DNA from: a virus
Reading direction: 5' to 3' (one strand)
DNA length: 36,032 nt
IMG/VR virus record: IMGVR_UViG_3300028571_000057
Coordinates: 1 to 36,032 of that record
The notes beneath the pieces were generated by a model. The model was given only the letters and a program-made list of their open reading frames with translations. It had not been told where the DNA came from and searched no databases. A program made the position numbers and the translations under genes. Within the stretch, counting starts at the first letter, position 1, and each line of letters starts with the position of its first letter. Of the stretch, positions 2,623 to 33,037 are shown in pieces.

Positions 2623-2674
2623 AGCTTCCTCATCGTTCCTGACGTTAAAATCATCATATCTGATGTTTTTACCA

Positions 2675-2703
2675 TTGACAACGGTGTGAGTTATCATCAT
2701 AAA
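2675..2703 (+). promoter_or_regulatory. Promoter candidate for the transposase
   Basis: TTGACA at 2675-2680 is a perfect -35 box; 17 bases later CATAAA (2698-2703) could be the -10. Transcription would then start near 2710, after the first ATG of the frame, which favours a translation start at 2724-2736. ATCATCAT-type repeats surround the site and resemble the inner part of the terminal repeats. Confidence 0.45.
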
Positions 2704-2705
2704 CG

Positions 2706-3689
2706 ATGCTGAACACATCGAATATGGTGATGATTATGGCTACCCCCTTCCACCTGACCGCAGCAGCCCGCACGATTTCGCTTCGCGAAGTCTTCAAGAT
2801 GGGTGACGACAAGGCTTGGGAGATGTTCAAGGCCATGCGTTGGCCGGAGAACAACGGCAAGCCGGTTTGCCCCAAGTGCGGCTGCACCGAAGCCTTCGAA
2901 ATCAAAACCCGCCGCAAGCACAAGTGCAAGGCGTGCCACCATCAGTTTTCGGTCACGTCCGGCACTATCCTTGCTAGCCGCAAGATGAGCTATACGGACC
3001 TGCTGGCGGCAATCGTCATCACCGTTAATGGCGCTAAGGGTCTTTCGGCTCTCCAACTTTGCCGCGATCTGGACTGCCAGCATAAGACGGCATTCGTCCT
3101 TGCTCACAAGCTACGTGAAGCACTCGCCGCTGAAATTGCTGGCGCTGAACTGTCCGGCACGGTTGAAGTGGACGGCTGCTACATTGGTGGCAGCATCCGC
3201 CCTGCCAACGAAAAGAAGAACCGGATTGATCGTCGCCTTGCTCAGAATCAGACTGGCAAGCGCCGCGTCGTGGTCATCGCCCGCGAGCGCAATGGCCGGA
3301 CTATGACGACCGTGACCAAAACGGAAGCTCAAGGCGTTGCCTTCGTGAAGGCGGTCGTCAACCCGAACAGCATCGTTCACGCCGACGAAGCTTCGCACTG
3401 GGATGCACTGCACGCTAAGTTCGCGACCATGCGCATCAACCATCAGGTCGCCTACAGCCTGAACGGCGCCTGTACGAACCAAGCGGAAAGCTTTTTAGCT
3501 CGCCTGCGGCGGATGATTGATGGTCAACATCACCACGTTAGCCCGCAACACCTTCATGCCTACGCCGCCCATGCCGCTTGGATGGAAGACAACCGCCGCA
3601 CGGACAACGGCGGACTGACTACGAAGGCGCTTGGCCTTGCTATGTCTCACCCGGTCAGCCGGACATGGAAGGGGTATTGGCAGCGTTAA
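2706..3689 (+). CDS. IS1595-family (ISXO2-like) transposase
   Basis: The protein has an N-terminal zinc ribbon (CPKCGC, residues 55-60, and CKACHHQFS, about 73-81). It then has an ISXO2-type catalytic domain: VEVDGCYIGG near residue 157 (first Asp), HADEASHWD near 226 (second Asp), and NQAESFLARLRRMIDG followed by the HHHVSPQHLHAYAAHAAW block in the C-terminal third. Its 327-aa length is normal for the family and no frame disruption is seen, so it looks active. It catalyses cut-and-paste or replicative movement of the element using the 36-bp ends. The true start is uncertain: ATGs at 2706, 2724, 2730 and 2736 are all in frame, none has a good ribosome binding site, and the predicted promoter favours 2736 (MATPFHLTAAART). 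Its stop overlaps the stop of the convergent gene at 3686. Confidence 0.92.
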   Translation: MLNTSNMVMIMATPFHLTAAARTISLREVFKMGDDKAWEMFKAMRWPENNGKPVCPKCGCTEAFEIKTRRKHKCKACHHQFSVTSGTILASRKMSYTDLLAAIVITVNGAKGLSALQLCRDLDCQHKTAFVLAHKLREALAAEIAGAELSGTVEVDGCYIGGSIRPANEKKNRIDRRLAQNQTGKRRVVVIARERNGRTMTTVTKTEAQGVAFVKAVVNPNSIVHADEASHWDALHAKFATMRINHQVAYSLNGACTNQAESFLARLRRMIDGQHHHVSPQHLHAYAAHAAWMEDNRRTDNGGLTTKALGLAMSHPVSRTWKGYWQR

Positions 3690-3916
3690 TCGCCACTGTT
3701 CCATTCTGGAGGCATTGTCTTGGATATGACACCTTCCAGAAGGCGACGAAACTCCCAGTCATCGTAGCGACCGCCGTCGTGCATAAGCGTAAACGGTTCA
3801 CCCCAGCCAGTTTCCCAAAGGTCAACACCGTCGCAAATAGTGCCGAGCAACCTACAACCGTAGGGCTCTAGCTTCTTCTGCATTTGCTGGAGAGAGAAAA
3901 GGCGGATTGCTATCAT
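3686..3916 (-). CDS. Small passenger protein following the HicB-like gene, candidate toxin partner (76 aa)
   Basis: The product begins MIAIRLFSLQQMQKKLEPYG and contains CDGVDLWETGWGEPFTLMHDGG, ending in an acidic tail. It lies 12 bases after the HicB-like gene in the same direction, an arrangement typical of two-gene toxin-antitoxin loci with the antitoxin first. I do not see the canonical HicA Gly-Ser-His-His motif, so calling it HicA would go too far. Its size and conserved-looking aromatic/Asp residues fit a small toxin or modulator. It converges on and overlaps the transposase stop by four bases. Confidence 0.5.
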   Translation of the reverse strand: MIAIRLFSLQQMQKKLEPYGCRLLGTICDGVDLWETGWGEPFTLMHDGGRYDDWEFRRLLEGVISKTMPPEWNSGD

Positions 3917-3928
3917 TCCGCCATCGTA

Positions 3929-4225
3929 CTAGGCAGCAATCGCCATCTCAACAACGAATTTCTCGTGCTGCACATGCATATCCACAAGTCGCGGACTTGG
4001 TTTTTTCAGCAATCCGTCTAGCGACGTCGTCGCGTGCACGGTAACCGACGTTAAGCCCTTGTGTTCAAAGAGAGCTTGAATTGCAGGCGCGATGCTTCTT
4101 AAAACCTTGGCCCGGTCTTGGCCAGATAAGATCAGTCCTGGGAGGTCGTCGCTAAATACGCGAAGCCCAGCATCGTCGCGATCTTCAATCGTCACGGAGA
4201 CGACTGCAAATGTTTGGCGTGTCAT
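3929..4225 (-). CDS. HicB-like antitoxin-type protein (98 aa)
   Basis: From ATG 4225 the product reads MTRQTFAVVSVTIEDRDDAG, then LRVFSDDLPGLILSGQDRAKVLRSIAPAIQALFEHKG. This is the HicB/DUF1902-type layout: a beta strand, an Asp-rich turn, a 'D(L/I)PGL' strand and a long helix. The usual C-terminal HTH or ribbon-helix-helix is not obvious; the tail instead ends VDMHVQHEKFVVEMAIAA. The start is chosen for its GGAGCC ribosome binding site; the frame could extend upstream to a TTG at 4330 but that has no support. With the following 76-aa gene it forms a candidate toxin-antitoxin pair that could stabilise the transposon. Confidence 0.55.
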   Translation of the reverse strand: MTRQTFAVVSVTIEDRDDAGLRVFSDDLPGLILSGQDRAKVLRSIAPAIQALFEHKGLTSVTVHATTSLDGLLKKPSPRLVDMHVQHEKFVVEMAIAA

Positions 4226-4382
4226 GTTGGCTCCATTGGGTATCAACGCACCACTACGCGCGCGAATCGCTAACTCGAAGTTAACGGAAGACCCTGAAAA
4301 GAGATTCGTTCCAATCCTGTCAAGCGTCAAGTTAATTTAAGGTCGTTAACGTCGATTTTGGGCTGTCGTGTCGTTAATGGCG
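4226..4382. other. Non-coding gap between passenger genes
   Basis: No supported gene. On the reverse strand two TTGAC boxes occur in tandem (TTGACG at 4330-4325 and TTGACA at 4323-4318), upstream of the HicB-like gene, but no convincing -10 box follows at the right distance. GTTAAC-type repeats are present. Confidence 0.3.
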
Positions 4383-4820
4383 TTAGCCGACTATCTTCCA
4401 ACTAAGGTTGCTGGCGTGCCCGAGGCTTTCCGCGAACCCTTGCCGACGGAGCAACTTGAGCGACTTACCAACCCGCTTCACGATATCATTCCGCAAGCGC
4501 CGGTCCCGCGCGTCCTTGCCTTCCAGCCCTATGAGTTTTACGGCTAACTCTCTGCTGGTGACGGGGGCGGTTGCCTTCCGCAGTTCGTCAATGAGCCAAC
4601 AACGAAGCTCGTTCCTCGCAAACATAATGATGCGGTTAGAGCGCGGCTGTACGCCCTTCAGGGCGCCATCGTAGCCGAGCGCGACCAAAACCCGGTCTAG
4701 CGCCTCAACGTCATTGCCAACGACCGCCATAGCCTCCCTAAGCCTTTGGGCTTCACCCATCAGTTCAGAGCGCTTGCGGAGTAATCCACTGATCGTATTG
4801 TCGTAGCCGTCTTGTGCCAT
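4383..4820 (-). CDS. Coiled-coil / winged-helix conserved hypothetical passenger protein (145 aa)
   Basis: Residues 8-45 (SGLLRKRSELMGEAQRLREA and on through EALDRVLVALGYDG) look like a coiled coil. Residues 60-145 look like a winged-helix domain: ARNELRCWLIDELRKATAPV, TSRELAVKLIGLEGKDARDR, then KRVGKSLKLLRRQGFAE and a wing-like SLGHASNLSWKI. I recognise this as a conserved hypothetical of alphaproteobacterial mobile DNA but know no assigned function. It is the outermost passenger, only about 30 bases from the right transposon end. A TGATGATG...CATCATCG dyad at 4843-4859 lies between its start and the right repeat and may be its control site. Confidence 0.7.
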   Translation of the reverse strand: MAQDGYDNTISGLLRKRSELMGEAQRLREAMAVVGNDVEALDRVLVALGYDGALKGVQPRSNRIIMFARNELRCWLIDELRKATAPVTSRELAVKLIGLEGKDARDRRLRNDIVKRVGKSLKLLRRQGFAESLGHASNLSWKIVG

Positions 4821-7787: not shown

Positions 7788-8180
7788 GTGTTTGAGATGC
7801 AGATCGAAGCTGAAAAAACTTCGATGACTTCGAAGGAAACTACCAGAGATAAGCGGATCGCCAATCTCAAGCCTTCTGTGAAGGGCCAACCTAGCCGCAA
7901 TCCAAGCGGTCGCCCCAAGAAGGATTACGACCTAGCGGCTCTGGCCCAAACGCACGCCAAGAAGGCCATTGAAACCCTCGTTGAAGTGATGAGCAGCGCA
8001 GAAGCACCACCAAGCGCCCGTGTTTCGGCTGCTGGTGAAATCCTCGACCGTGGTTTTGGCCGCGCTCCGCAATCCATCGCTCTCAACGCAACGATAGACT
8101 TTGGCGCTCAGTTTGAGGACTTCATTCGCGGCTTGAGCGCTGGATCGACGGCGAAAGTGATCGAAGGAACGTCAGAGTGA
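7788..8180 (+). CDS. DUF5681-like terminase-proximal protein, small terminase candidate (130 aa)
   Basis: The basic motif VKGQPSRNPSGRPKKDYDLA (residues about 31-50) is the hallmark of DUF5681-type phage proteins, found next to terminase genes. It is followed by helices LAQTHAKKAIETLVEVMSSA and AAGEILDRGFGRAPQSI. Position two genes before the large terminase fits a small-terminase or packaging-accessory role in recognising phage DNA. It overlaps the following GTG start by GTGA. The role is inference from position and motif. Confidence 0.65.
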   Translation: MFEMQIEAEKTSMTSKETTRDKRIANLKPSVKGQPSRNPSGRPKKDYDLAALAQTHAKKAIETLVEVMSSAEAPPSARVSAAGEILDRGFGRAPQSIALNATIDFGAQFEDFIRGLSAGSTAKVIEGTSE

Positions 8181-8419
8181 CCAACGAAACAGTGCAGCAA
8201 TCGGCGGCTGGCATCACTGCAACGGTGAATAAGCGCCGAAATCAATACGCAAACCTGATCAAAGACGCTGGCAACATGAGCCAGCAAGAGCTTTCGGATC
8301 GGATCTGCGTTCACCGGAACACGATTTCAAAATGGGCAACTGGCAAGGTTGCTGTCCCTGGTCCCGTTCGTGCCTATCTTCGCCTCTTCGCTGAAATCAG
8401 AATGGCTTTGGTGCATTGA
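8177..8419 (+). CDS. Helix-turn-helix protein immediately before the large terminase (80 aa)
   Basis: It has a GTG start in a GTGA overlap. Residues 35-60 form a Cro/XRE-like helix-turn-helix: MSQQELSDRICVHRNTISKW followed by ATGKVAVPGPVRAYL. A DNA-binding protein placed here could be the true small terminase subunit or a regulator of the packaging operon. Its stop overlaps the TTG start of the large terminase. Which of this gene and the DUF5681-like gene fills the small-terminase role cannot be decided from sequence alone. Confidence 0.6.
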   Translation: MTNETVQQSAAGITATVNKRRNQYANLIKDAGNMSQQELSDRICVHRNTISKWATGKVAVPGPVRAYLRLFAEIRMALVH

Positions 8420-19237: not shown

Positions 19238-19717
19238 ATGTGTCTGCCCGCGATTGGATTGGTTGCTGGGATAGCTGGCTCTGCCGTGTCGGCTATGGGC
19301 GCGGCGTCGAGTGCGAACGCTCAGGCGAACGCTGCCGAATACAACGCGACCGTTGAGCGGATTAACGCGAGATCGAACCGGCAAAAGGGTCTTGTTGAGC
19401 AGGAGCGGATTTCAGGCAAGTATGACGACGTTCGCGGGCAAGGCGTGGCGGCGGCCGGCAAAAGCGGCGTCGATAGCGGCTACGGCTCGGCAGCACTCGT
19501 GATCTTTGGCGACAATGCGAAGTCTCAGAGCCAAGACATGAGCACGGCCTACGTCAATGCGGAAGGCGCGGCGGTGGCGAACGAGAACAAGGCGCGCGAC
19601 TACGATGCGCAGGCCAAAGCCTCGCGGCAGGCTGGCAAAATCGGCATGGCGAGTTCGTTCCTGTCGGGCCTTGGCTCGATTGCGAAGGCTGGCCCGTCTC
19701 TCATGATTAATTCCTAG
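19238..19717 (+). CDS. Internal virion protein (T7 gp14-like)
   Basis: The product begins MCLPAIGLVAGIAGSAVSAM, a hydrophobic, glycine-rich start, followed by a long Ala/Asn/Gln-rich helix (ANAAEYNATVERINARSNRQ) and a second hydrophobic end (MASSFLSGLGSIAKAG). This is the layout of gp14-type proteins ejected into the outer membrane at infection. It starts two bases after the nozzle gene stop, with translational coupling likely. 159 aa is usual for the family. Confidence 0.78.
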   Translation: MCLPAIGLVAGIAGSAVSAMGAASSANAQANAAEYNATVERINARSNRQKGLVEQERISGKYDDVRGQGVAAAGKSGVDSGYGSAALVIFGDNAKSQSQDMSTAYVNAEGAAVANENKARDYDAQAKASRQAGKIGMASSFLSGLGSIAKAGPSLMINS

Positions 19718-19725
19718 AAAGCGAA

Positions 19726-19795
19726 AAGGGCGCGACCCTTTCGAGTGCGCCCCCTTCAAATCATTGAGATGCACCCGACCAAAGGTTTGCATCTC
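19726..19795 (+). other. Hairpins after the gp14-like gene
   Basis: CGAAAAGGG / CCCTTTCG forms a stem around 19731-19751, and GAGATGCA (19766-19773) pairs perfectly with TGCATCTC (19788-19795). Neither is followed by a clear T-run, so a terminator is possible but not proven. The region 19718-19886 holds no supported gene on the + strand. Confidence 0.4.
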
Positions 19796-19886
19796 ACAGA
19801 TCAGCAAATCGCGTCTTCACACAACGCTCCAACCTTATACAGCGTATGGAGCCAAAATTCAAGGGCTCCGCAAAATTCCGAGGAGG

Positions 19887-20084
19887 TCAAATGTCGGTTC
19901 TGTCAACACTGGTAAGACGCACGATCTCATCGCGTGGGACCAGCGTACGGCCTGCGATCTTTACAACGATCAGTTCTCCATTGTTGATCAGTTCGTAAAG
20001 GCTGGTTCGTCCAATTGAGAGGGCATAGCAAGCATCATTGATGGTGAACGCTAACCGTTCCCGAACAGGTTTCATATCGTCCAT
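19887..20084 (-). CDS. Excisionase/AlpA-like helix-turn-helix protein on the reverse strand (65 aa)
   Basis: The core LAFTINDACYALSIGRTSLYE (split here at 20: LAFTINDACYALSIGRTSLY) followed by LINNGELIVVKIAGRTLVPR and DEIVRL (residues 11-57) is the MerR-type HTH_17 pattern of excisionases and AlpA-like regulators. Such proteins bind DNA to direct excision or act as small repressors. The gene is oriented against every other structural gene and is inserted between the gp14-like and the 1082-aa genes. CCATAGG occurs as a 14-bp-spaced direct repeat over its start (20081-20101), and a dyad lies just upstream (20103-20120). ATG 20084 is taken as the start; ATG four codons later is possible. Confidence 0.72.
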   Translation of the reverse strand: MDDMKPVRERLAFTINDACYALSIGRTSLYELINNGELIVVKIAGRTLVPRDEIVRLTSVDRTDI

Positions 20085-20101
20085 AGGTTACCACCCATAG
20101 G
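20081..20101 (-). repeat. Direct repeat CCATAGG (14-bp spacing) at the HTH gene start
   Basis: CCATAGG at 20081-20087 and 20095-20101 flank the start codon region of the reverse-strand HTH gene. Spacing of 14 bases between copies is short for one helical turn and a half; it may be part of the ribosome-binding or operator region. Confidence 0.5.
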
Positions 20102-20102
20102 T

Positions 20103-20120
20103 TTTGATGACCGCATCAAA
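20103..20120 (-). promoter_or_regulatory. Dyad operator candidate upstream of the HTH gene
   Basis: TTTGATG (20103-20109) and CATCAAA (20114-20120) are perfect 7-bp inverted repeats with a 4-base centre ACCG. The site is 19 bases upstream of the reverse-strand ATG, where a self-regulating HTH protein would be expected to bind. Confidence 0.5.
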
Positions 20121-20320
20121 CTACCATGAACCCATCCCTAGAAATACCCCTAGTTGATTAAATGCTCCCATGATTTTTCCCGCTTGATTTTTAGGGGGCA
20201 TGTTCCGCACTGCAACTGTTCCTAACCGTTCCGATCTTTTCCGATTTTGGGCAGATCAACTGCTGATTGGATCGGGTTTGAGGTTGGACAATCTGCCCAG
20301 ATCAATTCCTAAGAGGTTTC
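20121..20320. other. AT-richer intergenic region before the 1082-aa gene
   Basis: No gene is supported. It contains an inverted repeat GGGCAGAT (20249-20256) / ATCTGCCC (20291-20298) with a 34-base loop, and a CTAACCGTTCC copy (20222-20232) that repeats 20051-20061 inside the HTH gene. The region probably holds promoters for the flanking divergent genes, but I cannot identify a clear box pair. Confidence 0.4.
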
Positions 20321-23300
20321 ATGCCGGTTATCCCACGGGTCTCAGGGCCTACGGTTGGTTTTCAGCCTGCGATGCAGCCGGGCACAAGTGGCGACGCCTA
20401 TGCGGCTCCAGGCAGGGCGATGCAGGGGCTTGGTCAGAGCATTGCGAGCCTTGGGGCGACGCTCGACGCGCGCGGCAACGATGAGGACGAATACCGTGCA
20501 AACCTTGAGCTGGTGAAGTGGCAAAACCAGCAGGACATTAGCCGGATCAAGTCTGAGAACGATTTCAACGGCGATCCGCGCGGGTATGCCAACGGTCAGT
20601 TGCAGTCGTTCGATAGCAGCGTGGCCGATCTGCGCACGCGGCTTCCCAACAATCCCAAGATCCAGCAGCGGGCGGCGCTGCATATCGAGCGGTCGCGCGG
20701 TAGCTACAACGAGGCCGCGACCAAGTTCGAATACGGCAAGACCAAAGAACAACTCGTTGCCGACGTTGACGCGACGATCACGAGCGAGTTTTCGCGGATC
20801 GAAGCGGGCAAGATTGAAGCTTTGCCCGATGACCTCGATGTGTCTATCCGTGGCATCAACCAGATGATCGACAAGGCTCCTGTGCCGGAAGGTGCCAAGG
20901 AGCGGTTGCGGGCGGCGAGTGCGCAGATGGTGCGCGCGCAGTTAGAGCGGTTGCCACCTGAGCAGCGGTTGCCCGCCGCGCAGAAGATCATGCAGACGAT
21001 CCAGACGCGCAACCCACCGCAAGAGGTTGGGCCACAGTCGGATGCGGGCGGGATGACGGGTGGCTCTGCCATATCCGTTGCAAAGACGTTCCTCGGCAAG
21101 AGTGAAGGCCAAGACGCAGAAGCCCTTTCCTCGTTCTTCAAGAAGTCGGCGGGGCAAAACCTCAACCCGGCAGACACGGCGTGGTGCGCGGCGTTCGTAA
21201 ACGCAGCCCTTGGGGCAAGCGGGCAAAAAGGCACTGGCACGCTTCTTGCGCGCGACTTTCTTAAGTTCGGTGCCGAAACGAATGAGCCAAGCGAGGGAGA
21301 TATCGTTGTTCTGACGCGTGGCGACCGCAACGGCTGGCAAGGCCATGTCGGGTTCTATGCTGGCAAGTCGGCCAACGGCAACATCCGTATTCTTGGTGGC
21401 AACCAAGGCAATAAGGTTTCGGTTCAAGAGTATTCGGCTGACCGTGTGCTCGGGTATCGTAAGCCGCCGAAGTCTGGGTCTGATTTGCCGGGTCTAAGCC
21501 TTCCTCAAGTCGCTGACGATGCAGGCGTTGCACCATCGCCAATTAAGACAACGCTTTCGGCCTACTCGCCTCAAGTCGGCGGGTCAAAGATGGAAGGCGG
21601 TTACGCCGCGAGCAAGTCAGGTCCTGACGGCAAGGCCGAAGTGCGCACGCTGGAAGACGTTGCATCTGGACGGTCGCCATACGTAACGGTTGCGGGCAAC
21701 CCCAGCCTCGCGGGTAAGTCGTATACTATTCCTGAGATCACGTTTATCGGCACGGATGGCAAAGAGCAGACGTTGAAAAACGTCAAGGCCGTCGTGCACG
21801 ATACCGGCAGCGCGTTCAAGTCGGCTCCCGAGGGCCGGTTTGACGTGCCCATCGCCAAGGACGCAGATAACGCCCTGATGGCAAAGAATGCCGGTCTATG
21901 GTCGAAGGCTGGCGTGCAGTTCGTGCCGGAAGGGGCCGCGCCTAAGGGCAAGGGGACACAAGTCGCTGGCCTCAAGGCCGGCACCATGACAGATGCAGGA
22001 CAGCAAGGGCAAGGCTCGGCTGCCGACGATCTAACCCCGCGCGAAACGGACGGATCGCCAGAAGCCAACGCCAAGGAAACGGCACGGCTTGAAGCGGCCA
22101 AGGTGCGCGTTGCTGGCGGTGGGCCAACCTTCACACCGCAATCAGGCCGCACATCGAGCGTTGGCCTGCGTGGCGCAAGCGCTGACAGCCATGTGCTCGA
22201 AGCCCTGAACAAACACATGCCAGCCTATCAGGCGGCACAGCAGCACGCGCTTGAGGTCAAGATCAAGAGCATCGACGACCGCGCGGCAAAGGGTGAGATT
22301 CCGCCACCTGCCGAAGTCCAGCAGCTTCGCGCAATGACCAAGGATCATCCGCTGCTATCGCAGGCGCTAGAGCAGACGTTGCAAGGCGCTGAGTTTACCC
22401 GCGCCTATATGCAATCCAACCCGATTGCGGTCGACGCTAAAATCCAGCAGCTTCGCGGCGAGATGAACACCAAAGGGACAAGCCAAGCCCTATCGGTGCA
22501 TGTGGCGGCGCTCGAAAAGCTGCAAACGAAGATGGACAGCGAATTGCGCAAAGACCCGTATGGATGGGGTGCGGAAGCTGGCATCACGCCCGTTGTGAAG
22601 CCGATCGCGCCGCAAACTGTCCTGACCGCGCAAGGGGCCGATCTCATGGCCGAACGAGTGAAGATTTCGGACGACCTGGTCAAGCACTACGGTGAGGGAT
22701 ACCGGCAGTATTTTACGCCGACCGAAAAGACCGCACTCGTTGCCGGGTTAAAGCAAGGTGGACCTGCTGCAATCGGTATCCTGACCCAGATGCGTACGGG
22801 CATGGGCGACCGAATGCCTGATGCGATCCGTGAATTGCTACCCGACGAACCAGAGCTTGCGCGGGCGGGGTTCCTTGCGGCCTATGGCGGCGATCCTAAG
22901 GGCGTTGAGGCGATCACGTCCACGTTCGCGAGACGGCAAGATAAGAACTACAAGCCCCCGAAATACGCCTACGACGCAACGTCCAGGCAAGCGGACGCGA
23001 AGAGCATCCTTGGCGATCTGTACGAAGCCCAGCCTGACGCCCGCGAGCTGGACCGCACCATGCGCGCGGCAGAAGCGATTTATGAACACCTTGATCCATC
23101 TGGCGCTGAACCCGGTGGCGAAAAGTGGAAGCAAGCCGTAAATATGGCGGTTGGTGTTCGCGTCGACGGGTTTGGTGTCGAATACGGCGGCGTTGTCCCG
23201 ACCAGATCTGGCTACTTTGGCAGCAGCGGCGGCAATGTTGGTCTGCCGTCGAACATCGCCAAGGACCAGTTTTCTAGGCTGCGTATGGACATGACGAAAG

Positions 23301-23569
23301 AACACTTGATTGCCGCTGGCCTGCCGTTACCCGCAACGAAGGAGGGCAACCCGATCTCAATGGGTAAGATTGCCACCTCGCAACTCGTCCATGCTGGATT
23401 CGGCAAGTACTACGTGGTCACGAAGGGAACGACCCCGGCAGATTACCAGTATGCGGCTAGCATCGGGCCTGATGGCAAGCCTACGGGGAAGCCGTTCGTG
23501 CTCGACATGATGGCGCTGGAGCCGGTGTTGCGCAAGCAGTTTCCAAGTAGCTACTTCCCGACCAAGTGA
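20321..23569 (+). CDS. Large internal-virion/lysin protein with NlpC/P60-CHAP-like and 3D-like domains (1082 aa)
   Basis: Residues 1-245 are helical with an Ala/Gln-rich start. Residues 247-383 resemble the TIGR02594 / NlpC-P60-CHAP peptidase type: TAWCAAFVNAALGASGQKGT with Cys289, EPSEGDIVVLTRGD, GHVGFYAG with His342, and ILGGNQGNKV with Asn361, a plausible Cys-His-Asn triad. Residues 411-533 resemble a 3D (RlpA-like barrel) domain: TLSAYSP, VHDTGSAFKSAPEGRFDVPI with Asp494 and Asp508, and AGVQFVPEG. The C-terminal half (about 590-1082) is helical and unrecognised. This combination suggests a virion protein that cuts peptidoglycan during DNA entry, comparable in role to T7 gp15/gp16. AAGAGG precedes the ATG. 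It overlaps the convergent small membrane gene by 19 bases. Confidence 0.75.
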   Translation: MPVIPRVSGPTVGFQPAMQPGTSGDAYAAPGRAMQGLGQSIASLGATLDARGNDEDEYRANLELVKWQNQQDISRIKSENDFNGDPRGYANGQLQSFDSSVADLRTRLPNNPKIQQRAALHIERSRGSYNEAATKFEYGKTKEQLVADVDATITSEFSRIEAGKIEALPDDLDVSIRGINQMIDKAPVPEGAKERLRAASAQMVRAQLERLPPEQRLPAAQKIMQTIQTRNPPQEVGPQSDAGGMTGGSAISVAKTFLGKSEGQDAEALSSFFKKSAGQNLNPADTAWCAAFVNAALGASGQKGTGTLLARDFLKFGAETNEPSEGDIVVLTRGDRNGWQGHVGFYAGKSANGNIRILGGNQGNKVSVQEYSADRVLGYRKPPKSGSDLPGLSLPQVADDAGVAPSPIKTTLSAYSPQVGGSKMEGGYAASKSGPDGKAEVRTLEDVASGRSPYVTVAGNPSLAGKSYTIPEITFIGTDGKEQTLKNVKAVVHDTGSAFKSAPEGRFDVPIAKDADNALMAKNAGLWSKAGVQFVPEGAAPKGKGTQVAGLKAGTMTDAGQQGQGSAADDLTPRETDGSPEANAKETARLEAAKVRVAGGGPTFTPQSGRTSSVGLRGASADSHVLEALNKHMPAYQAAQQHALEVKIKSIDDRAAKGEIPPPAEVQQLRAMTKDHPLLSQALEQTLQGAEFTRAYMQSNPIAVDAKIQQLRGEMNTKGTSQALSVHVAALEKLQTKMDSELRKDPYGWGAEAGITPVVKPIAPQTVLTAQGADLMAERVKISDDLVKHYGEGYRQYFTPTEKTALVAGLKQGGPAAIGILTQMRTGMGDRMPDAIRELLPDEPELARAGFLAAYGGDPKGVEAITSTFARRQDKNYKPPKYAYDATSRQADAKSILGDLYEAQPDARELDRTMRAAEAIYEHLDPSGAEPGGEKWKQAVNMAVGVRVDGFGVEYGGVVPTRSGYFGSSGGNVGLPSNIAKDQFSRLRMDMTKEHLIAAGLPLPATKEGNPISMGKIATSQLVHAGFGKYYVVTKGTTPADYQYAASIGPDGKPTGKPFVLDMMALEPVLRKQFPSSYFPTK

Positions 23570-23839: not shown

Positions 23840-26800
23840 ATGTTCGATATCAAGCCCACGATCACAGAGCAACAGCTTTACAGCGAACCAACGATTGATC
23901 TCGGAACCCCGGCTGGCATGGGTGAGGTGTTCGATTCTGCGGTGAAGGACGTTTGGGCGAGCGGTCAGGTATCGTCCAGCATCAACAACGAGATGGACAC
24001 GTATGCGCGGCACATCAAGAAAGTAAAGGAGTTGACCGGCGCGGAGTTGGTTAACCCAGCCCTGATGGATGGGCCATATGTGGAGGGCGCGCGCAAGACG
24101 TTCCTCGATGAGCTCGAAAAGCTGGCAGCAAAGCATCCCGACAAGAGGGCTGATCTCCTGCCGGAGCAGGACTTTGAAGACCAAGCGCGCGGCATGGTGC
24201 GCGCGTCAAGGCTCAAGACTGGTGAGGCGTGGGAAAGGTCTGACAAGGGGATTGCCGCGTGGACTGCATCGTTATCTGGTAGTCTTGTGGGCGGGTTGTC
24301 AGACCCGATAAACGCAGCCGCCATGTTGGCAACGCCATGGGTTGGGGCCGGTCGTGGATTAACCGGCATGGCGGCTGCTGCGGCTAAGTCAGGCGCTTAC
24401 AATGCCGCCGCCGAAGTCGCGATGCAGCCGTTTATCCGGTCCTACTCCGAAAGCGCCGGAATGCCGATCACTTTAGGCGAATCTGCGGTGCAGGTTGGTG
24501 CAGCCTTTGGCCTTGGCGCTGGCCTCGATGCGCTCTTTCGCGGCGGTGCCCGTGGCCTTGCCACCTATCGCGGCCTCACTCCTATCCTCAAAGACGACAA
24601 GATTGTTGGCTGGCGTCGACCTGGCGAAGTTGACCCGGCGACCATTGCCGCTCCCGGCACGCTGATCGAACCAACCCCGCTCGATATTCCCGAAGATCTG
24701 ACCGCTCGCGCATTTGGCGATGGTCCTGATGCTGTTGCCGCCCGTGCTGAGATTGCCAAGCGGATAGACAGCACGAATGACCATCTATCCATGGAGACCG
24801 TTCGCAAGGCTGAATCCGGTGACGTGACCGATCCAGCAACGATTGCCGCACAGCGCAAGGTGGCCGAAGTGACCGGCGAGATTGAGCGGCCCGACGTTCG
24901 TGCCCGGATTGACGCTGAGGAGACGGCTAACGCCACGATCCGCAAGCGTCCAACTGACAACATTGACGACGACACCCACCTTGCCGCGACAAAGCAAGCC
25001 TTGGCCTACGTGGCCGATCCGGTGAACAACCTTCCCCCGGCCCGTGTCCTTGAATCAGGACCAGCAACGGGCTGGCTGCGCGACATGCGCGAAAAGGTGG
25101 AGCAGCTTCAGGCCAAGGTGCAGCAGGAGCTTTCCGACGACGACCGCAAGGCGCTGCTCATGGTCAACACCATGGACCGTGCCAACGCCGATCCGGTGGC
25201 CGCTGCTCGCATGCTGCGCGAAGAACCAGCGCTCATGACGCGCGATCTGGATTTCGGAGAGACGGGCCTAGGCCAAGCCCGGTCCATCGCAACTCTATCC
25301 GATGAAGCCTTTGAACGTGTGGCCTCGGGTGAATATGCCCCCGAGATTGGAGCCCTCGTTGCCGACCATGTGCCGGAAGGTTTTCAGATCCGTGCGCTAC
25401 AGGACCTAACCGATCGCGCGCCGACCTCGGAAGCTAGCGCCCGCGCCATGCTGGCGGATATGCTGAACGGCCCTGAATATCGCGCAGCACCCGGGGAAAG
25501 CCCGGTCACGCTGCGCGAACGGCAGATGGACGATCCCTATGGGAAGGAAGCACAAGCTCAAGTCCAGCAACTCGAATCCGAACTTGCCGAAGAACTAGGC
25601 CGCAAGGCTGCACCCGACCCGACGCCGGTTGAAATCATCACGGACGCGATCAAGAAGGCGGACGAGGTGCGGTCTGCCGTCGAAAGCATGGCAGGGATGT
25701 TGCCGGAAGGCGTGCGTGTGAAGACCTACACGGCACTCTCTGACGTGCCTGATACGGTTGTGGCCGATATGCTGGCCGCGAACCGTCAACGCTTTGAGCG
25801 GGCAAGTCTGGCCTATCAAGTGGCCGATAACGCTGAAGCCCGCGCTGCTGCCCGTCTGGAGTTGGACGAAGCCCTTGCCCTGCGTGGCGTCGAAGCGTTC
25901 GTTGACACAGCCGACGCGAACACGATCTGGCTTGCCTCCTACGCCATGAACCCACGGGGCCGGATTGCGCACGAGGCGGTCCACATCCTCAAGGCCCAAG
26001 GCCGGATCGTGCCGGAAGAGATGGCGGCGCTTGCCGCGTTTGCCCGCGAAAGCCGCGCGTTCTCGCCTAGCCGTCAAGCCTCCTATGCGGAAGCCTACAA
26101 AGCGCGCGGAACACCGGAACGGGTGGCCGAATTGCTGGACGAGGAAGCCGTTGCGCATTTGATCGAAGCTCGCGCCAACGGCAAACTTGATCCGGTGGAT
26201 ATTCCGCCCCGCGTTCTGACGATCCTCGACCGCATCGCTGAGTTCTTTGATAGCATCCGCAATGCTCTCATGGGGAAGGGCTTCACATCGACCGCAGAGA
26301 CGACGTTCTCCGCCCGCAAGGCGCAAGCGGCAGAGATTGAACGGCTGATCCAGACCGTCATGAACGGCGAAGCGGCAAAGCGTGTTGCAACGCAAGCCGT
26401 GATGCAGGCCGAAGATATTAAGGCGATGGCGGTAAAGCCGGTCACTCCTGCCGTCAAGAACGAAATTCCATTTGATCTCCCCCGCTACGCTGACCCGGAA
26501 GGCAATGAGCTTTCATTCGATGACGTGAGAACGATCGTTGACCAGTGGCGCTACGTGCGCAACGAGAAATGGCAAACCCAGCCGCGAAGCCTGATCCCGT
26601 TGGAGGCTGGGTTTATCCCAACGCCTGAACGTCCAACCGTGGCTGACTTCCTCGAATACGTGCGCCAAGAGATCGGGGGGGATAAGGTCTACAGTGATTT
26701 TGACAGCGACCGCGTCAGCGACCTTCAAATCTCCAAGCAGATGAAGCAAGACCTTGACCGGCTTGGTGTTGCTGACGCCAAGACCGAGCGGGAAGTGATG

Positions 26801-29800
26801 CAGCGGCTTGAGGTGGGCGGCGGTGATGGAACGCGGTTTGCTTTGGCTGATTTGGCCGTGCGCAACGATGCGGTATTGCTGGACGACGTGGGGCCGAACG
26901 ATCCGCATCCTGGCCGTATGCTGGCGCTGCACGTGACGCGGGCGAACTTTGATGCATTCGATCCAACTAAGTCTAAGGACTTTGGCGTTCACTTCGGCAC
27001 ACAACCGCAATCTGACGTGTTCTCCGGGCTGATCTCGTCGCGTGAGCAAGCGCGCGTGTTGCCGGTGGTGATCGACGCCAAAAACGTGGTTGACGTGCCC
27101 GACCTCATGATGTGGCCCGCAAACGAGGTGGCACAGGCCGTAGAGGCGAAAGTTCCATCCGCGCAAGGCTTGGCCGCTGAAGTCGCAGCTGCGCCCGGTG
27201 ACGCTGGGAAAGACGCCTTGCGCAAGGGGCTGACATCTCGCGGCATTGATGCCCTGCGCTATTGGAACGAATCCGAAGGCGACGGCTGGTCTTATATCGT
27301 TTGGGACAAGGGCCACGTCACAAGTGCAACGTCTCCGAAAGATGCGATGTTCGTTTCTGGCATGCAGCCCAAGAGCGACGGACAAGCGATGTTCTCGTTC
27401 TCTGACGAACAAATCGACAAGATGCCTACTACAAAGGCCAAGTATAGGCTTGTTGGCGGCCCTGGCGATCCGCCGCTGATCGGTGAAGCAAGGGCAGCCC
27501 TTAAGGTAATGGCTTCTCATATTGGGATCGTGTCTGAGCAGTCCGTCGAAGCCGCTAGAGGCGCTAAATTCTATGCTAAACGCAGGGAACTTGGGTCTCC
27601 ATTAGAGGCTGTAAAGCAAGCGAACGATAACCGTATTTCGGAGAAAGGTAACGTTGAGACGATGCGCCGTGAGGCGACAGGTCAATCGTTCAACTATGAC
27701 ATAGAGGACGTTGACGGGAATCGCGTTGGTCGTGCTTATGGGTGGGTTGTTGGTAAGGAAATGTATTTTGATTGGCTTGGGGGTTGGAGCGACGAAAAGA
27801 ATACTCTAGGTATTCGCGTTATAAAAGACCTCAGAGAGCAAGTTCGTAAAGACTTCCCGCAAGTTACTAAGTTCACGGGATACCGTGTAAGTGGTGCACG
27901 CAGCAAGGCTGATGCCAATAATAAAATTCAATCTGTTACCATGTTCGCCTTTGCTGGCGAGCGTGCGAAAACTGCTGACCTAGAAGCCCTGGCTAAAGCC
28001 AAGAAGATGACGGAGGACGGCAAAGACCGCACTGATATCTGGACCTCTACCGGCTGGTTTAAGGGGGTGGATGGCAAGTGGAGGTTTGAGATTGATGATA
28101 GCTCGATGTCATTGAACCTGCCAATCGCCACAAGGTCAACGATGGGAAAAGCTATCAACCATCCTGAATTTTTTGCCGCTTACCCATTTTTTAAGGACCA
28201 TGGCAAAGGCTATTATGACATATCGCCAAAGTTCAATTATTTGTCGCCTAAGTCGAGGATACTGTCTGGAGGTGAAGGCGTTTACCGTGGGCACTGGGAT
28301 GGGATAGGTTTAGACCGCACTCTTGACCCAGCCAATAAGCGTTCGACTACTTTGCATGAGATGCAGCACGCGGTTCAAGATGTGGAGGAATTCGTTCTAG
28401 GAGCATCTCCTAGCGATAAGGAAGGTCTGACAAAGATTTCAGCCGCTAGACGGAAAGAAGTTGAGGGAGCGATTCGCATTGGAGAGGCAGCAGAGAAGCA
28501 TCCTGACGATTATACTCCCGAAGAATGGGCTATAGAGGCCGCCAGAGTTGGTAAAAGCTTAGGCGTATCTGATCGCTCAATTAAGCTGGCGTCGAATTGG
28601 AACGATGCAAGAGCTGCTTACCAAGAATACCGCAGGTCAGATCCTTATGCTAGGTATCACGATAACGCTGGCGAGGTTGAGGCACGCCTAGTCGAAACAC
28701 GCCGCGACATGACCGCCGACGAGCGCCGCGCCCGCCCGCCGTGGCTCGACTACGACGTGCCAGAAGATCAGCAGATCGTAAGGTTTGGAGCAGGACAGCA
28801 GAACAGCGAACCTATGTTTGCGCTTGCCGACCGCGACACCGGCCAATCCATGCGCCGTGATCAGGATGCGCTGGGATATTACTCGCAACTTGACCGGGTG
28901 CTGAAATCGTTCAAGCCGACCGATAGCGTCACGCTCGACACCCTCGCCAAGCGCGGCGTGAAGACGGCAGAACTGGAAGCGCGCGGGCTGAAAGATGCGT
29001 TTGCAGGTGGTCCAGTCAAAGTTGGCGATCTCCAGGCCAATGCGGGAAAGCCGGTAAGGCTGAATGAGGTGGTGCGTGGGCGTGACCAAACGCAGACATT
29101 TGATGAGTGGCGACGTGAAAGCGATTACGCCGAAGCGGCTGGGTACAACCGTTCATTGACAGCATCCCAACTGCGCGAAGCACGGGCAGCATACGAGCAT
29201 GAATCGCCAGACGACACCAAATGGTCCCGTCACTCCCTCGACCCTTCTAACCCAAGCTACAGAGAGACGGTCCTGCATCTGCCGGTTAGCCGACTCGATA
29301 CGTTTGAGCAGTTTCGCGATGCGTATCTGAAGCGCTTCCCAGGCACATCAGATGGCTACATGCGCGCGGCTTATGCGCAGGGAGAAAGAGCACCGCCGCG
29401 TGTAGGGTACGGCACAGCACCTCCTGATGTCTTCCAATCCGGCCACTTCCCCGAGCCCAACATCACCGGCCACCTTATGACTTCCATGACGAGGCATGAA
29501 GGCAAGCCGGTGTTTACGGTGGACCAGATCCAGAGCGATTGGGGCCAGCGGTTGCGCGACGGCGGCGTCAGGGATGAGGCGAAGATTGCGGGGCTGAAGG
29601 CACGGCTAGATGAAGCCAATGCCGCAGAAGATAAGCTAAAACCCGCATTTGCTGATCGAGGGCAAGAGTTGGGATTGCTCGCAAGTCTTGAAAATTACGG
29701 CGGCAATTTGGATAGAATGAAGGCTGAAAAATACAGCAACGGAAAGCCCGTGCATCCATTGGCTGGATTGTTGACTGATGAATACGTTAAAGCAATGCAG

Positions 29801-32800
29801 TACCGTAAACTTCTTTGGGCTGAACTGAACACCGCCGAAGCCTCTGCCTCCGGCCATCCCCTTGTCAACACCACCGACCAGTGGACCAACACCACGCTAC
29901 GGCGCGCGATACGTATGGCAGCCGAAGCCGATGCGGAGTATATCGCGATCCCGCATGGCGATACGGTGTTGAGCTACAACCCTGGCAAAGATGAAGGCAT
30001 GGCCGGGTTCTACGGCACGCGAACTATGGAAGGGATTGTCCCGAAGAACCTGCGCAAGATGCTTGAGAAACTGGACAAGGAGAGCCCAAGGCCACAGCGG
30101 GTTGAAACCCTCGCTACGCCATCAGGTGATCGTGGATGGCAGGACGGAACGAGCAACCCGTTTGACAAGTCTCAAACCGGCTTCACCGTTTTCCCCCTGA
30201 CAGAGAAGGTGAAAGCCTCAGTGCGTGAGGAAGGGCAGGCGCTGTTCGCCATGCGCGACGAACGAGGCCGTGAAAAGCTAGGCGCTGCCGAACGTGCTGC
30301 TCAACTCAAGGCCGATCTTGCGGAGATTGAAACCCGGTTCCAAGCCTCGGGCGGGGATGAGCGGGAGAAGCTCCAAGCCAAGCGGGCCGTGTTGCTCAAT
30401 GCGCGGGCGCTCGAAAAGGTGCTGGACGATATCGAATTGTTCAGAGGATTTGCTGGGAAGTTCGACGGTACGCTTGTATCCGATAATGCTCGTGCGTTGC
30501 TTGTGATGCTGGAAGGCTACGGCTCGGTTAACGACGTGCCGTTTAAGGACATGCACTTCCTCCACAAGGACATCGTTAACGCGATGTTGCAGCGCATGAG
30601 CAATGTCGGATGGGAGTTCCGCAAGGGGGCTATTACCGGCGACATGCGCCGCCGCGCCATGCGAACGTCAATGGACAACATGATCAAGGAGGCGGCAGGA
30701 GAAAACACAGGCGATCCGCTGGCGAAGGCACTAGGCAAGGAATGGCTTGCTGTTCAGGAACACTTGCGCCAGCGGTTCAACGCGGCGGGGGGTGACATTC
30801 CCAAACTTGAAGGTTACTTCGCACCCCAGGGCCACGATCCTGAGATGCTGCTGATGGTTGGTCAACGCAAGTGGGTTGACTACCTTATGGCAGAAGGGAT
30901 GCTTGATCGTGACCGGATGATTGATTACTCAACTGGCAAGCCGTTTGAGGATGCGGCGCTACGTGATGTGTTGTCTGATATCTGGAAAACTGTCACCACG
31001 GCAGGCGGCAATAAGCTTGACCCAGACAACCCTGTCATGATCGGCAAGGGCGCGATGTACAAGCGCCACATGGATCATCGCGTCATTCACTTTAAGGGTG
31101 CTGACAATTGGCTCAAATACCAACGTGAGTTGGGCAACGGTGACGTGTTTGCAGCGATGCACAACCATATCAACGTCATGGCGCGCGACATTGCGGCAAT
31201 GGAGCGGTTCGGGGCGAATCCGAACCTCGTTTACCAGCGCGCGAAAGCGATCATCAAAAACGAAGCCGAGATGCACCGATCAAACAAGATCGTGATGGAC
31301 GAGTTTGCTGACGTGGTGCGTCAAGCCTGGACAGCGCTGCAATCTGCCAACCGCAAAGTTCTTGACGATGCTGGCCTATTGCCGGGGCTGGCAAAGAGCC
31401 TTGATGAATTACGGGCGATGAAAGACAGCCCGGGCGCTCCGGTTCGCCAAGTCGTACGCGACGCCGCATTCGCCAAGATGGAGGCCAACCTAGCTGAGTT
31501 TGAGAAGGTGTTTGCACAGCTTGACGGCAAGCCAGCATCTGGTCCGCTCGTTGCCAAGGGCCGCGACCTTATGAGGGATATCCGCAACCAAGCCGGAACG
31601 GCTTCTGTCCTCGACAAAAAGAAAAGCCCAACATCCTACGTCGATGGCGTGCTGCATCGCGCAGATGAAGTTTGGGATTCCTATATGGGCGTTTCTAACG
31701 TCGCGGTGAACATGACGTTAGCGCGCGGCCTTGCAGGAACCCGGAATATCATATCATCGGGTTTGCTCGTCATGGCTCCGATTTCATCGGTAACGGACTT
31801 TTCAACCCAGCTTGCCGCGCGGCGCTTCTCTGGTATCCCAGCCAACACGCAATTGAGATCGTTCATTAACGCTTTCAAATCCTCAACCAAGCAGGAGATG
31901 CTACGCGCTGGCGTTGGCCACGAAGTCGCAATGGCCGCGTTCCAAGAGCAAGCGTTGTCTGTTGATCGGTTCAGCGCCCATCAGGTGACGGGCTACATTG
32001 CCGACCGGTCGCATCAATTCTCTTTCCTGTCGCCGCTAACGGCGGCACAGAAGGCAGGCTATAGTCATGACTTCATGTCTCACATGGGTTCTTTGGTGGG
32101 TGTTCCATTTGACAAGTTAGACGCCGAAACGCAGAGAATGTTTAAGCGCCACGGTATATCTCGCACGGACTGGATGCGCCTAAGCAAGGTTGAGCCCGAT
32201 ATGTCCAGCGGGGTTCCGATGATGACGCGAACCGTAATCGAAGATCAATTCGGTACGGGCCTAGCTGAAAAGTACGGCATCATGCATCTGCGTGAACGGG
32301 CATTCAGTACCATTGAAACAGGCAACCGGGCACGGTCTATGTGGATTGGCAATACCAAGCCTGGAACGCGGCGTGGCGAGCTGGCGCGGTCTGAGGCCAT
32401 GTTTAAGTCGTTCCCAACCATGTACACGATGCTGATCCTTGGTCGTCTTTACGGGGAGATGATGAACGGACGATGGGGCAGCGCTGCGGCCTACGGCGGA
32501 ACGGTGTTTGTGTTCGGGTCGATCCTTGGTGCAACCGCGATCCAGCTCAAGAACTTGTGGTACGGGCGCGATCCAGAAGACATGACCAAGCCAAAGTTCT
32601 GGGCACATGCCTTTGCACAATCGGGCGGGCTTGGCTTGCCGTCAGACTATATTAACTCTGCTGTTGACCGCAATCAGAACAGTATGGATGGCTTGGTTTT
32701 GGGTCCAGTCTACGGCGCTGGTAAGATGGTAATGAACGCCACACTCGGAAACCTTGGCCAGTACGGACGCGAAGAAAAAACCAACATTGGTCGTGAGTTT

Positions 32801-33037
32801 GTTAAAGCGGCTCGCAGCTACACTCCAGGCATGTTCGTTCCGTTCTATCTGCGGTCAGCCTACAATCACATGATTCTTGACCAAGTTCAGAATTACGTGG
32901 ACCCGGATGCGCATAAGGCGCGAAGGGCTGACGAACGGGCGAGAAAGAAGAATTTCGGAAACGGGTATTACTGGCCAGCCGGTCAGATGTTCCCGCCCCG
33001 CGCACCCAACATTGGCGCGGCAATAGGCCGGAACTAG
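23840..33037 (+). CDS. Giant polyvalent internal-virion protein (3065 aa)
   Basis: The order of parts is as follows. Residues 1-250 form an N-terminal region with Gly/Ala-rich hydrophobic stretches (about 137-200). Residues 708-800 hold a metallopeptidase-like segment with HEAVH at 711-715. Residues 1027-1170 look like a polyvalent ADP-ribosyltransferase (LHVTRANFDAFDP, GVHFGT, and ALRYWNESEGDGWSYIVWDK). Residues 1197-1647 carry a second HExxH, HEMQH at 1506-1510 in STTLHEMQHAVQD, with GEVEAR near 1611. Residues about 1807-2134 include a VDQIQSDWGQRLRDGG motif (from about 1895), found in phage polyvalent proteins. The rest (2140-3065) is helical with one hydrophobic stretch near 2880-2900, as in gp16-type ejection proteins. 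It probably enters the cell with the DNA and carries early effector enzymes. Segments at 27430-28700 and 29620-29830 are visibly lower in GC, suggesting acquired domains. Domain calls are by memory of motifs. Confidence 0.8.
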   Translation: MFDIKPTITEQQLYSEPTIDLGTPAGMGEVFDSAVKDVWASGQVSSSINNEMDTYARHIKKVKELTGAELVNPALMDGPYVEGARKTFLDELEKLAAKHPDKRADLLPEQDFEDQARGMVRASRLKTGEAWERSDKGIAAWTASLSGSLVGGLSDPINAAAMLATPWVGAGRGLTGMAAAAAKSGAYNAAAEVAMQPFIRSYSESAGMPITLGESAVQVGAAFGLGAGLDALFRGGARGLATYRGLTPILKDDKIVGWRRPGEVDPATIAAPGTLIEPTPLDIPEDLTARAFGDGPDAVAARAEIAKRIDSTNDHLSMETVRKAESGDVTDPATIAAQRKVAEVTGEIERPDVRARIDAEETANATIRKRPTDNIDDDTHLAATKQALAYVADPVNNLPPARVLESGPATGWLRDMREKVEQLQAKVQQELSDDDRKALLMVNTMDRANADPVAAARMLREEPALMTRDLDFGETGLGQARSIATLSDEAFERVASGEYAPEIGALVADHVPEGFQIRALQDLTDRAPTSEASARAMLADMLNGPEYRAAPGESPVTLRERQMDDPYGKEAQAQVQQLESELAEELGRKAAPDPTPVEIITDAIKKADEVRSAVESMAGMLPEGVRVKTYTALSDVPDTVVADMLAANRQRFERASLAYQVADNAEARAAARLELDEALALRGVEAFVDTADANTIWLASYAMNPRGRIAHEAVHILKAQGRIVPEEMAALAAFARESRAFSPSRQASYAEAYKARGTPERVAELLDEEAVAHLIEARANGKLDPVDIPPRVLTILDRIAEFFDSIRNALMGKGFTSTAETTFSARKAQAAEIERLIQTVMNGEAAKRVATQAVMQAEDIKAMAVKPVTPAVKNEIPFDLPRYADPEGNELSFDDVRTIVDQWRYVRNEKWQTQPRSLIPLEAGFIPTPERPTVADFLEYVRQEIGGDKVYSDFDSDRVSDLQISKQMKQDLDRLGVADAKTEREVMQRLEVGGGDGTRFALADLAVRNDAVLLDDVGPNDPHPGRMLALHVTRANFDAFDPTKSKDFGVHFGTQPQSDVFSGLISSREQARVLPVVIDAKNVVDVPDLMMWPANEVAQAVEAKVPSAQGLAAEVAAAPGDAGKDALRKGLTSRGIDALRYWNESEGDGWSYIVWDKGHVTSATSPKDAMFVSGMQPKSDGQAMFSFSDEQIDKMPTTKAKYRLVGGPGDPPLIGEARAALKVMASHIGIVSEQSVEAARGAKFYAKRRELGSPLEAVKQANDNRISEKGNVETMRREATGQSFNYDIEDVDGNRVGRAYGWVVGKEMYFDWLGGWSDEKNTLGIRVIKDLREQVRKDFPQVTKFTGYRVSGARSKADANNKIQSVTMFAFAGERAKTADLEALAKAKKMTEDGKDRTDIWTSTGWFKGVDGKWRFEIDDSSMSLNLPIATRSTMGKAINHPEFFAAYPFFKDHGKGYYDISPKFNYLSPKSRILSGGEGVYRGHWDGIGLDRTLDPANKRSTTLHEMQHAVQDVEEFVLGASPSDKEGLTKISAARRKEVEGAIRIGEAAEKHPDDYTPEEWAIEAARVGKSLGVSDRSIKLASNWNDARAAYQEYRRSDPYARYHDNAGEVEARLVETRRDMTADERRARPPWLDYDVPEDQQIVRFGAGQQNSEPMFALADRDTGQSMRRDQDALGYYSQLDRVLKSFKPTDSVTLDTLAKRGVKTAELEARGLKDAFAGGPVKVGDLQANAGKPVRLNEVVRGRDQTQTFDEWRRESDYAEAAGYNRSLTASQLREARAAYEHESPDDTKWSRHSLDPSNPSYRETVLHLPVSRLDTFEQFRDAYLKRFPGTSDGYMRAAYAQGERAPPRVGYGTAPPDVFQSGHFPEPNITGHLMTSMTRHEGKPVFTVDQIQSDWGQRLRDGGVRDEAKIAGLKARLDEANAAEDKLKPAFADRGQELGLLASLENYGGNLDRMKAEKYSNGKPVHPLAGLLTDEYVKAMQYRKLLWAELNTAEASASGHPLVNTTDQWTNTTLRRAIRMAAEADAEYIAIPHGDTVLSYNPGKDEGMAGFYGTRTMEGIVPKNLRKMLEKLDKESPRPQRVETLATPSGDRGWQDGTSNPFDKSQTGFTVFPLTEKVKASVREEGQALFAMRDERGREKLGAAERAAQLKADLAEIETRFQASGGDEREKLQAKRAVLLNARALEKVLDDIELFRGFAGKFDGTLVSDNARALLVMLEGYGSVNDVPFKDMHFLHKDIVNAMLQRMSNVGWEFRKGAITGDMRRRAMRTSMDNMIKEAAGENTGDPLAKALGKEWLAVQEHLRQRFNAAGGDIPKLEGYFAPQGHDPEMLLMVGQRKWVDYLMAEGMLDRDRMIDYSTGKPFEDAALRDVLSDIWKTVTTAGGNKLDPDNPVMIGKGAMYKRHMDHRVIHFKGADNWLKYQRELGNGDVFAAMHNHINVMARDIAAMERFGANPNLVYQRAKAIIKNEAEMHRSNKIVMDEFADVVRQAWTALQSANRKVLDDAGLLPGLAKSLDELRAMKDSPGAPVRQVVRDAAFAKMEANLAEFEKVFAQLDGKPASGPLVAKGRDLMRDIRNQAGTASVLDKKKSPTSYVDGVLHRADEVWDSYMGVSNVAVNMTLARGLAGTRNIISSGLLVMAPISSVTDFSTQLAARRFSGIPANTQLRSFINAFKSSTKQEMLRAGVGHEVAMAAFQEQALSVDRFSAHQVTGYIADRSHQFSFLSPLTAAQKAGYSHDFMSHMGSLVGVPFDKLDAETQRMFKRHGISRTDWMRLSKVEPDMSSGVPMMTRTVIEDQFGTGLAEKYGIMHLRERAFSTIETGNRARSMWIGNTKPGTRRGELARSEAMFKSFPTMYTMLILGRLYGEMMNGRWGSAAAYGGTVFVFGSILGATAIQLKNLWYGRDPEDMTKPKFWAHAFAQSGGLGLPSDYINSAVDRNQNSMDGLVLGPVYGAGKMVMNATLGNLGQYGREEKTNIGREFVKAARSYTPGMFVPFYLRSAYNHMILDQVQNYVDPDAHKARRADERARKKNFGNGYYWPAGQMFPPRAPNIGAAIGRN

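Follow-up and report, generated by a model that had tools for sequence, protein, structure and literature searches.

Between two virion genes of a podovirus-type phage, we found a 603-bp insert (positions 19,718–20,320) carrying one gene on the strand opposite to its neighbors. We favor, with some reserve, the reading that this insert is a single-gene moron, that is, an autonomous extra gene between conserved phage genes, which brought an excisionase-type winged helix-turn-helix (HTH) gene from an alphaproteobacterial integrative island into the virion region as its own leftward unit. The window, meaning the whole stretch of DNA analyzed here, is a 36,032-base IMG/VR virus record with packaging, head, tail, and virion genes, and its tail protein is akin to those of Pelagibacter phages, epsilon15, and BcepC6B.

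The gene to the left of the insert (19,238–19,717, plus strand) encodes a complete internal virion protein of 159 aa that matches positions 1–152 of the 166 in the phrog_418 profile, and its stop codon ends at 19,717. The gene to the right (20,321–23,569, plus strand) encodes a 1082-aa virion protein with a CHAP domain (PF05257, phrog_1259). The HTH gene lies between them on the minus strand (19,887–20,084), as an earlier note on this DNA had described. The CHAP gene is followed by a 3065-aa open reading frame (ORF; 23,840–33,037), whose only match at E 0.001 is the large-polyvalent-protein domain PF18838, so an "ejection" role for these large genes is conjectural. The last ORF of the window runs off its right end, where the record is open.

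Elsewhere in the window, positions 568–1134 encode a NusG-like protein that matches the phage transcription antiterminator family phrog_6386, and an 80-aa HTH_3 regulator (8177–8419) stands directly ahead of the terminase large subunit gene. The region 2383–4820 contains an IS1595-type transposase (2706–3689), a DUF6471 gene, and a gene for a 145-aa protein (4383–4820, minus strand). The latter may be a passenger gene, since homologs lie near a similar transposase in both bacterial regions that were read (L198 and L199).

The HTH gene has 65 codons and no internal stop, and it retains the residues that are invariant in eight members of its family. Its product matches HTH_17 (PF12728) with 33.1 bits, above the Pfam gathering cut-off of 27, which agrees with the excisionase-like, DNA-binding gene of the earlier note and supports DNA binding by homology. 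At E 0.01 or better, Pfam gave only HTH_17 and Rv2175c_wHTH, with no match to any AlpA model. The score against the excisionase-family DNA-binding domain TIGR01764 ("excise") was 23.8 bits, below the NCBIfam cut-off of 28.8, and the match to phrog_66 was weak (E 0.0026). Identity with the MADS defense protein Mad1 was rejected (11.9 bits against an NCBIfam cut-off of 80), and we read the PADLOC match to Mad1 (E 1.4e-5) as probably reflecting the shared HTH_17 domain. A small-terminase-like role was also set aside, as the protein is 65 aa long and its gene is antisense and distant from the terminase gene.

An AlphaFold2 model of the protein, built from a three-sequence alignment (mean pLDDT 78.1, pTM 0.56), predicted a winged-HTH fold. 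Searched with Foldseek, the model returned Pukovnik Xis (4j2n) first, with an E value of 0.033, a TM score of 0.67, and an rmsd of 1.2 over 48 columns, followed by BldC, with RdfS (8dgl) at rank 34 (TM 0.66); there was no Foldseek match at E 0.001. The likeness to Pukovnik Xis and to RdfS of ICEMlSym-R7A is that of a small winged-HTH protein with a matching predicted fold, at sequence identities of 23% and 15%, respectively. RdfS is reported to belong with the group 17 HTH domain (PMC11963761). Searching the solved structures by sequence gave ankyrin-type matches only, which were taken as chance, and the eight-sequence HTH profile gave no match among them. In contrast to HTH_17 excisionases, the window gene stands antiparallel among virion genes and has no tyrosine integrase as a neighbor or elsewhere in its record.

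The two virion genes that flank the insert overlap or abut in relatives. At locus L013, whose tail protein is 52% identical to that of the window, the stop codon of the internal virion protein gene overlaps the start codon of the next gene by one base, and the N-terminus encoded by this next gene is, by eye, similar to that in the window. The same one-base overlap was found in L204, L206, L209, L214, and L218, with head proteins 61–63% identical. To read this joint more widely, we took as the "next gene" the first plus-strand ORF of at least 100 aa starting within 2.5 kb, all ORFs being called mechanically. The internal virion protein was present in 137 loci besides the window among the matches listed in a first survey, and the next ORF was readable in 119 of them; the gap was at most 60 nt in 106 of these 119 loci, 61–300 nt in nine, and larger in four. 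Of 77 new loci among the matches listed in a second survey, 39 encode the internal virion protein, with a gap of at most 60 nt in 33 of the 35 that were readable, at least four of these 35 (L212, L224, L227, and L229) being re-reads of contigs from the first survey and the relatives not being independent of one another.

A gap of at most 60 nt is too small to hold the HTH gene, so the cassette is absent from these relatives. Because the virion genes overlap or abut there, the 603 bp are best read, from these comparisons, as an insertion in the lineage of the window phage. The presence or absence of the cassette in sister phages had been proposed as a check by the earlier note, with a degraded reading frame as the adverse outcome; where the gap is at most 60 nt the cassette is missing rather than degraded, and the frame in the window is intact. 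Larger gaps occur in 15 loci, 13 from the first set and two from the second. These were searched with a narrow HTH profile of three sequences, which in most of the sister loci it was tried on failed to pick up the HTH_17 ORFs, and ten of the 15 were listed by ORF. In the first set, this profile matched only the window, L002, L003, and, weakly (E 0.0011), L010, where the match lies away from the joint of the two virion genes; it matched nothing in the second set.

The close relatives were found by aligning the tail protein and, separately, the major head protein. None was found in viral contigs with the internal virion protein, the portal, or the CHAP protein alone, or in genome contigs with the tail protein alone. 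The loci closest by head protein among the matches listed (L200–L202, 72–73%) were too short to reach the joint. No donor for the 603 bp was found among phages or plasmids.

The insert also stands out by its base composition, with a dip in GC content and a GC3 of 0.52 in the HTH gene against 0.62–0.73 in six virion genes. This lower GC content, together with a strand-asymmetric, terminator-like hairpin after the gene, fits a moron, and the moron cassette of the earlier note is supported by the same hairpin and by the presence of an additional gene where relatives have a closed joint. The window insert shares with phage morons the closed joint, the differing base composition, and the terminator-like hairpin, but differs from them in carrying a regulatory gene, not one for host fitness, and in that a simple scan recognized no promoter. 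As a moron the gene is thus ordinary, while its cargo and its placement are mildly unusual.

The best bacterial relatives of the HTH protein lie mostly near integrases. Matches were found in 52 of 397 bacterial genomes, all drawn from one order, and the seven best places, all of which were read, showed 51–61% identity over the matched part. In five of the seven (L191, L193, L195, L196, and L197), a tyrosine integrase lies 0.3–2.6 kb from the HTH relative, called by similarity and Pfam in the first four and by similarity in L197. The remaining two places are at contig ends: L192 is a 3.5-kb contig, and L194 begins at a contig end 1 kb ahead of the HTH gene and has no integrase recognizable by similarity along the following 8.8 kb. 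Genes for a primase, AAA_25, or DUF927 accompany several of the bacterial relatives. With the HTH protein alone as query, we found two viral loci (L002 and L003), one plasmid record from Bradyrhizobium japonicum, and four named-phage records, which are two mycobacteriophages each deposited twice and annotated as excisionase-type or LamD-like. The L002 record has an integrase about 3.7 kb from the HTH relative.

The gene could also be the phage's own excisionase, displaced from its usual place and working with an integrase that lies past the open right end of the record, a reading to which we give little credence. It draws on 22 other phage records, of which eight have a tyrosine integrase (PF00589) and six an HTH_17 match (PF12728, five of them over the cut-off), the HTH_17 gene adjoining the phage's own integrase in G408 and G409, and on the last ORF of the window running off the right end. 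However, eight HTH_17 ORFs from six sister phage records are only 12–23% identical to the window protein, against the 51–61% of the bacterial proteins, so the gene is more likely, on these identities, to have come from an island than to have moved within the phage. Furthermore, the window record contains no tyrosine integrase (PF00589; the search covered recombinases of the tyrosine type up to the open right end), and a recombination partner is therefore unseen.

The hairpin that follows the HTH gene in the sense of its transcription (19,722–19,758, minus strand) lies 128 nt past the HTH stop codon. Its 16-bp stem contains one bulge and carries a GAAA loop, and an imperfect U tract follows, with UUUUCGCUUU at the 3′ side. 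On the minus strand its folding energy is -25.5 kcal/mol (z -3.84). The plus strand, in which A-C mismatches take the place of the G-U pairs of the minus-strand stem, folds to -14.8 kcal/mol (z -1.50). The hairpin is strong but not unique, because the energy of the best window overlapping it (-27.6) was reached by 101 of 7194 minus-strand windows and its strand asymmetry was matched by 39 of 7194 windows across the whole window. With moderate confidence, we consider it a putative leftward terminator that the rightward late transcript could pass. A simple consensus scan for terminators called none, this hairpin included, and Rfam gave no match at E 1 or better in 19,600–20,400. A second stem-loop (19,760–19,801, minus strand), an inverted repeat with a z of -2.81, lies between the HTH gene and the hairpin. 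When the 603 bp were compared with the 397 genomes, two short matches of 36 and 32 bp appeared among the candidates scored (at most two in most of the genomes listed). The 36-bp match covers the terminator-like hairpin and lies 23 nt past the end of a leftward ORF; it is weak support, because a rightward ORF also covers it and both ORFs were called mechanically.

At the edges of the insert lies a 12-bp imperfect direct repeat, GATTAATTCCTA where the internal virion protein gene ends (19,705–19,716) and GATCAATTCCTA immediately upstream of the ribosome-binding site (RBS) of the next gene (20,300–20,311), in which 11 of 12 positions agree. At 12 bases, its p value was 0.002 by mononucleotide shuffle and 0.004 against random window pairs; at word lengths of 10, 14, and 17 it was 0.056, 0.032, and 0.012, and as 14-mers against random window pairs 0.085. 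The repeat may be a trace of the insert's arrival, although it is no proof of it. In a separate resemblance, AATTCCGAGGAGGTCAAATG (19,874–19,893, plus strand) is similar to AATTCCTAAGAGGTTTCATG (20,304–20,323), the RBS and start of the next virion gene; the AATTCCGAGGAGGTCAAATG copy reaches into the 3′ end of the HTH gene and is followed by a plus-strand frame of 35 codons.

The edge repeat would take on another meaning if the insert were what is left of an integrative element or satellite that had integrated where the internal virion protein gene stops, comparable to helper-embedded PICIs, with all but the Xis/AlpA-type gene lost and the edge repeats as degenerate att sites. We consider this unlikely. 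It would account for a repeat at both boundaries with such p values at 12 bases and for the integrases and, in several cases, primase-type genes beside the HTH relatives, and there is a published account of satellites that encode integrase and AlpA and target late genes, within which they reside (PMC10111431). The window gene resembles AlpA regulators and helper-embedded PICIs as a DNA-binding regulator of the integrative-element kind, here inside a phage late region, with relatives near integrase and, in several cases, primase-type genes. Yet a helper-embedded PICI, as described there (PMC10111431), comprises integrase, AlpA, and primase, interrupts a late gene, and has its key genes facing with the operon, whereas the window insert is 603 bp long, holds one gene and no integrase, primase, or other island gene, leaves the late gene uninterrupted and the internal virion protein complete, and opposes the late operon. 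The p value of the edge repeat, moreover, depends on word length. A remnant of this kind would lead one to expect a AATTCCTA-like sequence at the joint of alignable empty-site relatives.

Several repeats had been noticed around the start of the HTH gene, and all are present: a 7-bp dyad, TTTGATG-ACCG-CATCAAA with a spacer of 4 (20,103–20,120), 19 bases upstream of the ATG; a direct repeat of CCATAGGTT over the start codon (20,081–20,103, with copies at 20,081 and 20,095); and the 11-bp repeat CTAACCGTTCC, with one copy inside the gene (20,051–20,061) and the other at 20,222–20,232, these being its only copies in the window at up to one mismatch. An inverted repeat reported as 8 bp at 20,249/20,291 is also there, though it measures 9 bp and begins at 20,248 (TGGGCAGAT/ATCTGCCCA, 20,248–20,256 and 20,291–20,299, with a 34-bp spacer). 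We compared them with 200 dinucleotide shuffles of the 603-bp sequence for each statistic, the p values being per repeat type, with several types inspected, and uncorrected: 0.045 for a direct repeat of at least 11, 0.035 for a 9-base repeat at a distance of at most 20, 0.105 for a 9-bp inverted repeat with a spacer of up to 60, and 0.245 for a 7-bp dyad with a spacer of up to 10. These repeats barely exceed chance, whereas the hairpin and the edge repeat, which the earlier note does not list, exceed it somewhat more. When the DNA ahead of the HTH gene was compared with as much as 300 bp ahead of eight relatives, no word of at least 10 bases was common to both; shared words numbered 24 (8-base) and 6 (9-base) against 15.0 and 4.2 in mononucleotide shuffles, only slightly above them.

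We did not treat the repeats as operators, since they are near chance on shuffles, and the operator dyads of the earlier note therefore find no backing either there or in the upstream regions of the relatives. It had further suggested that the cassette could control the two giant genes or lysogeny. That the protein binds the dyads in 20,085–20,320 and thereby switches the two large genes downstream strikes us as improbable, even though the dyads and repeats occupy the position expected of operators and the inverted repeat at 20,248–20,299 immediately precedes the RBS of the 1082-aa gene. Against such control, the repeats are near chance, no sigma-70-like promoter was found in 19,500–20,500 (a simple consensus scan confined to that promoter type), the joint is closed in the readable relatives, and no operator is common to them.

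Under the single-gene moron reading, the HTH gene would be transcribed leftward from the 236-bp region that also contains the RBS of the next virion gene (20,085–20,320), where we presume a leftward promoter, and the transcript would end at the hairpin, short of the internal virion protein gene. Rightward late transcription would run antisense through the HTH gene and shut it off, so its protein would be made only while the late operon is off. Like the Xis and RdfS proteins, it would be a DNA binder; it would regulate its own promoter, and its other targets would lie in trans, at att sites or early promoters of the prophage or of a resident island, and not in the neighboring virion genes. Some excisionases, XisF4 of Pf4 and P2 Cox among them, also regulate transcription (PMC7379572) and provide a model for such a dual role; xisF4 adjoins a repressor gene under the control of XisF4, whereas the window HTH gene lies in the virion region.

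The gene might instead be a neutral passenger heading for loss, which we hold to be highly improbable. No other locus that was read has an HTH gene at the joint, as judged by the narrow profile and the gap survey, and the simple scan gave no consensus promoter, as would suit a passenger; but the frame is intact, the invariant residues of the subfamily are kept, and the terminator-like hairpin is correctly oriented. If the captured gene works, it would be an excision-type regulator uncoupled from any visible integrase in the virion region of a phage, and a possible channel for one mobile element to control another; if it does not, it is an ordinary moron. The locus also shows cleanly how a gene can be captured between two virion genes that otherwise overlap; in relatives, the joint can be seen closed.

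We then looked at related genes in other phages. A profile of the eight family members, run against the viral collection, matched seven loci, one of them the L002 contig. In L300, whose record lacks a tyrosine integrase, an HTH_17 relative lies between the terminase large subunit and portal genes (L300:2677–11276). In L303 and L304, which are near-identical and count as one type, a relative lies between the scaffold (phrog_206) and major head protein (phrog_283) genes. The relatives in L301/L302 and in L305 are in other regions. A tyrosine integrase was present in one of six records searched, G433 (the record of L303), about 23 kb from the HTH relative. Unlike in the window, the HTH genes of L300 and L303/L304 face with their neighbors. 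From these positions, the capture of such genes among head and packaging genes may be recurrent, on the strength of two phage types besides the window.

More speculatively, and with small probability in our estimate, phages might repeatedly capture orphan island excisionase genes and keep them among head, packaging, or virion genes without an adjacent integrase, to act in trans on resident islands and force the excision or derepression of competitors at infection or induction; the antiparallel placement in the window would then confine expression to the non-late phase. No description of an orphan excisionase gene among virion genes stood out, by title or abstract opening, among the papers listed, which is no evidence of its absence from print. 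Two further arrangements were seen in other loci. The scaffold–head gap of L303 (2150–4300) and L304 (3300–5340) also holds an antisense, antitoxin-like HTH gene (phrog_1381), and in L113 (12,547–14,251) the internal virion protein gene (phrog_418 type) is present in two tandem copies, 529 bp apart.
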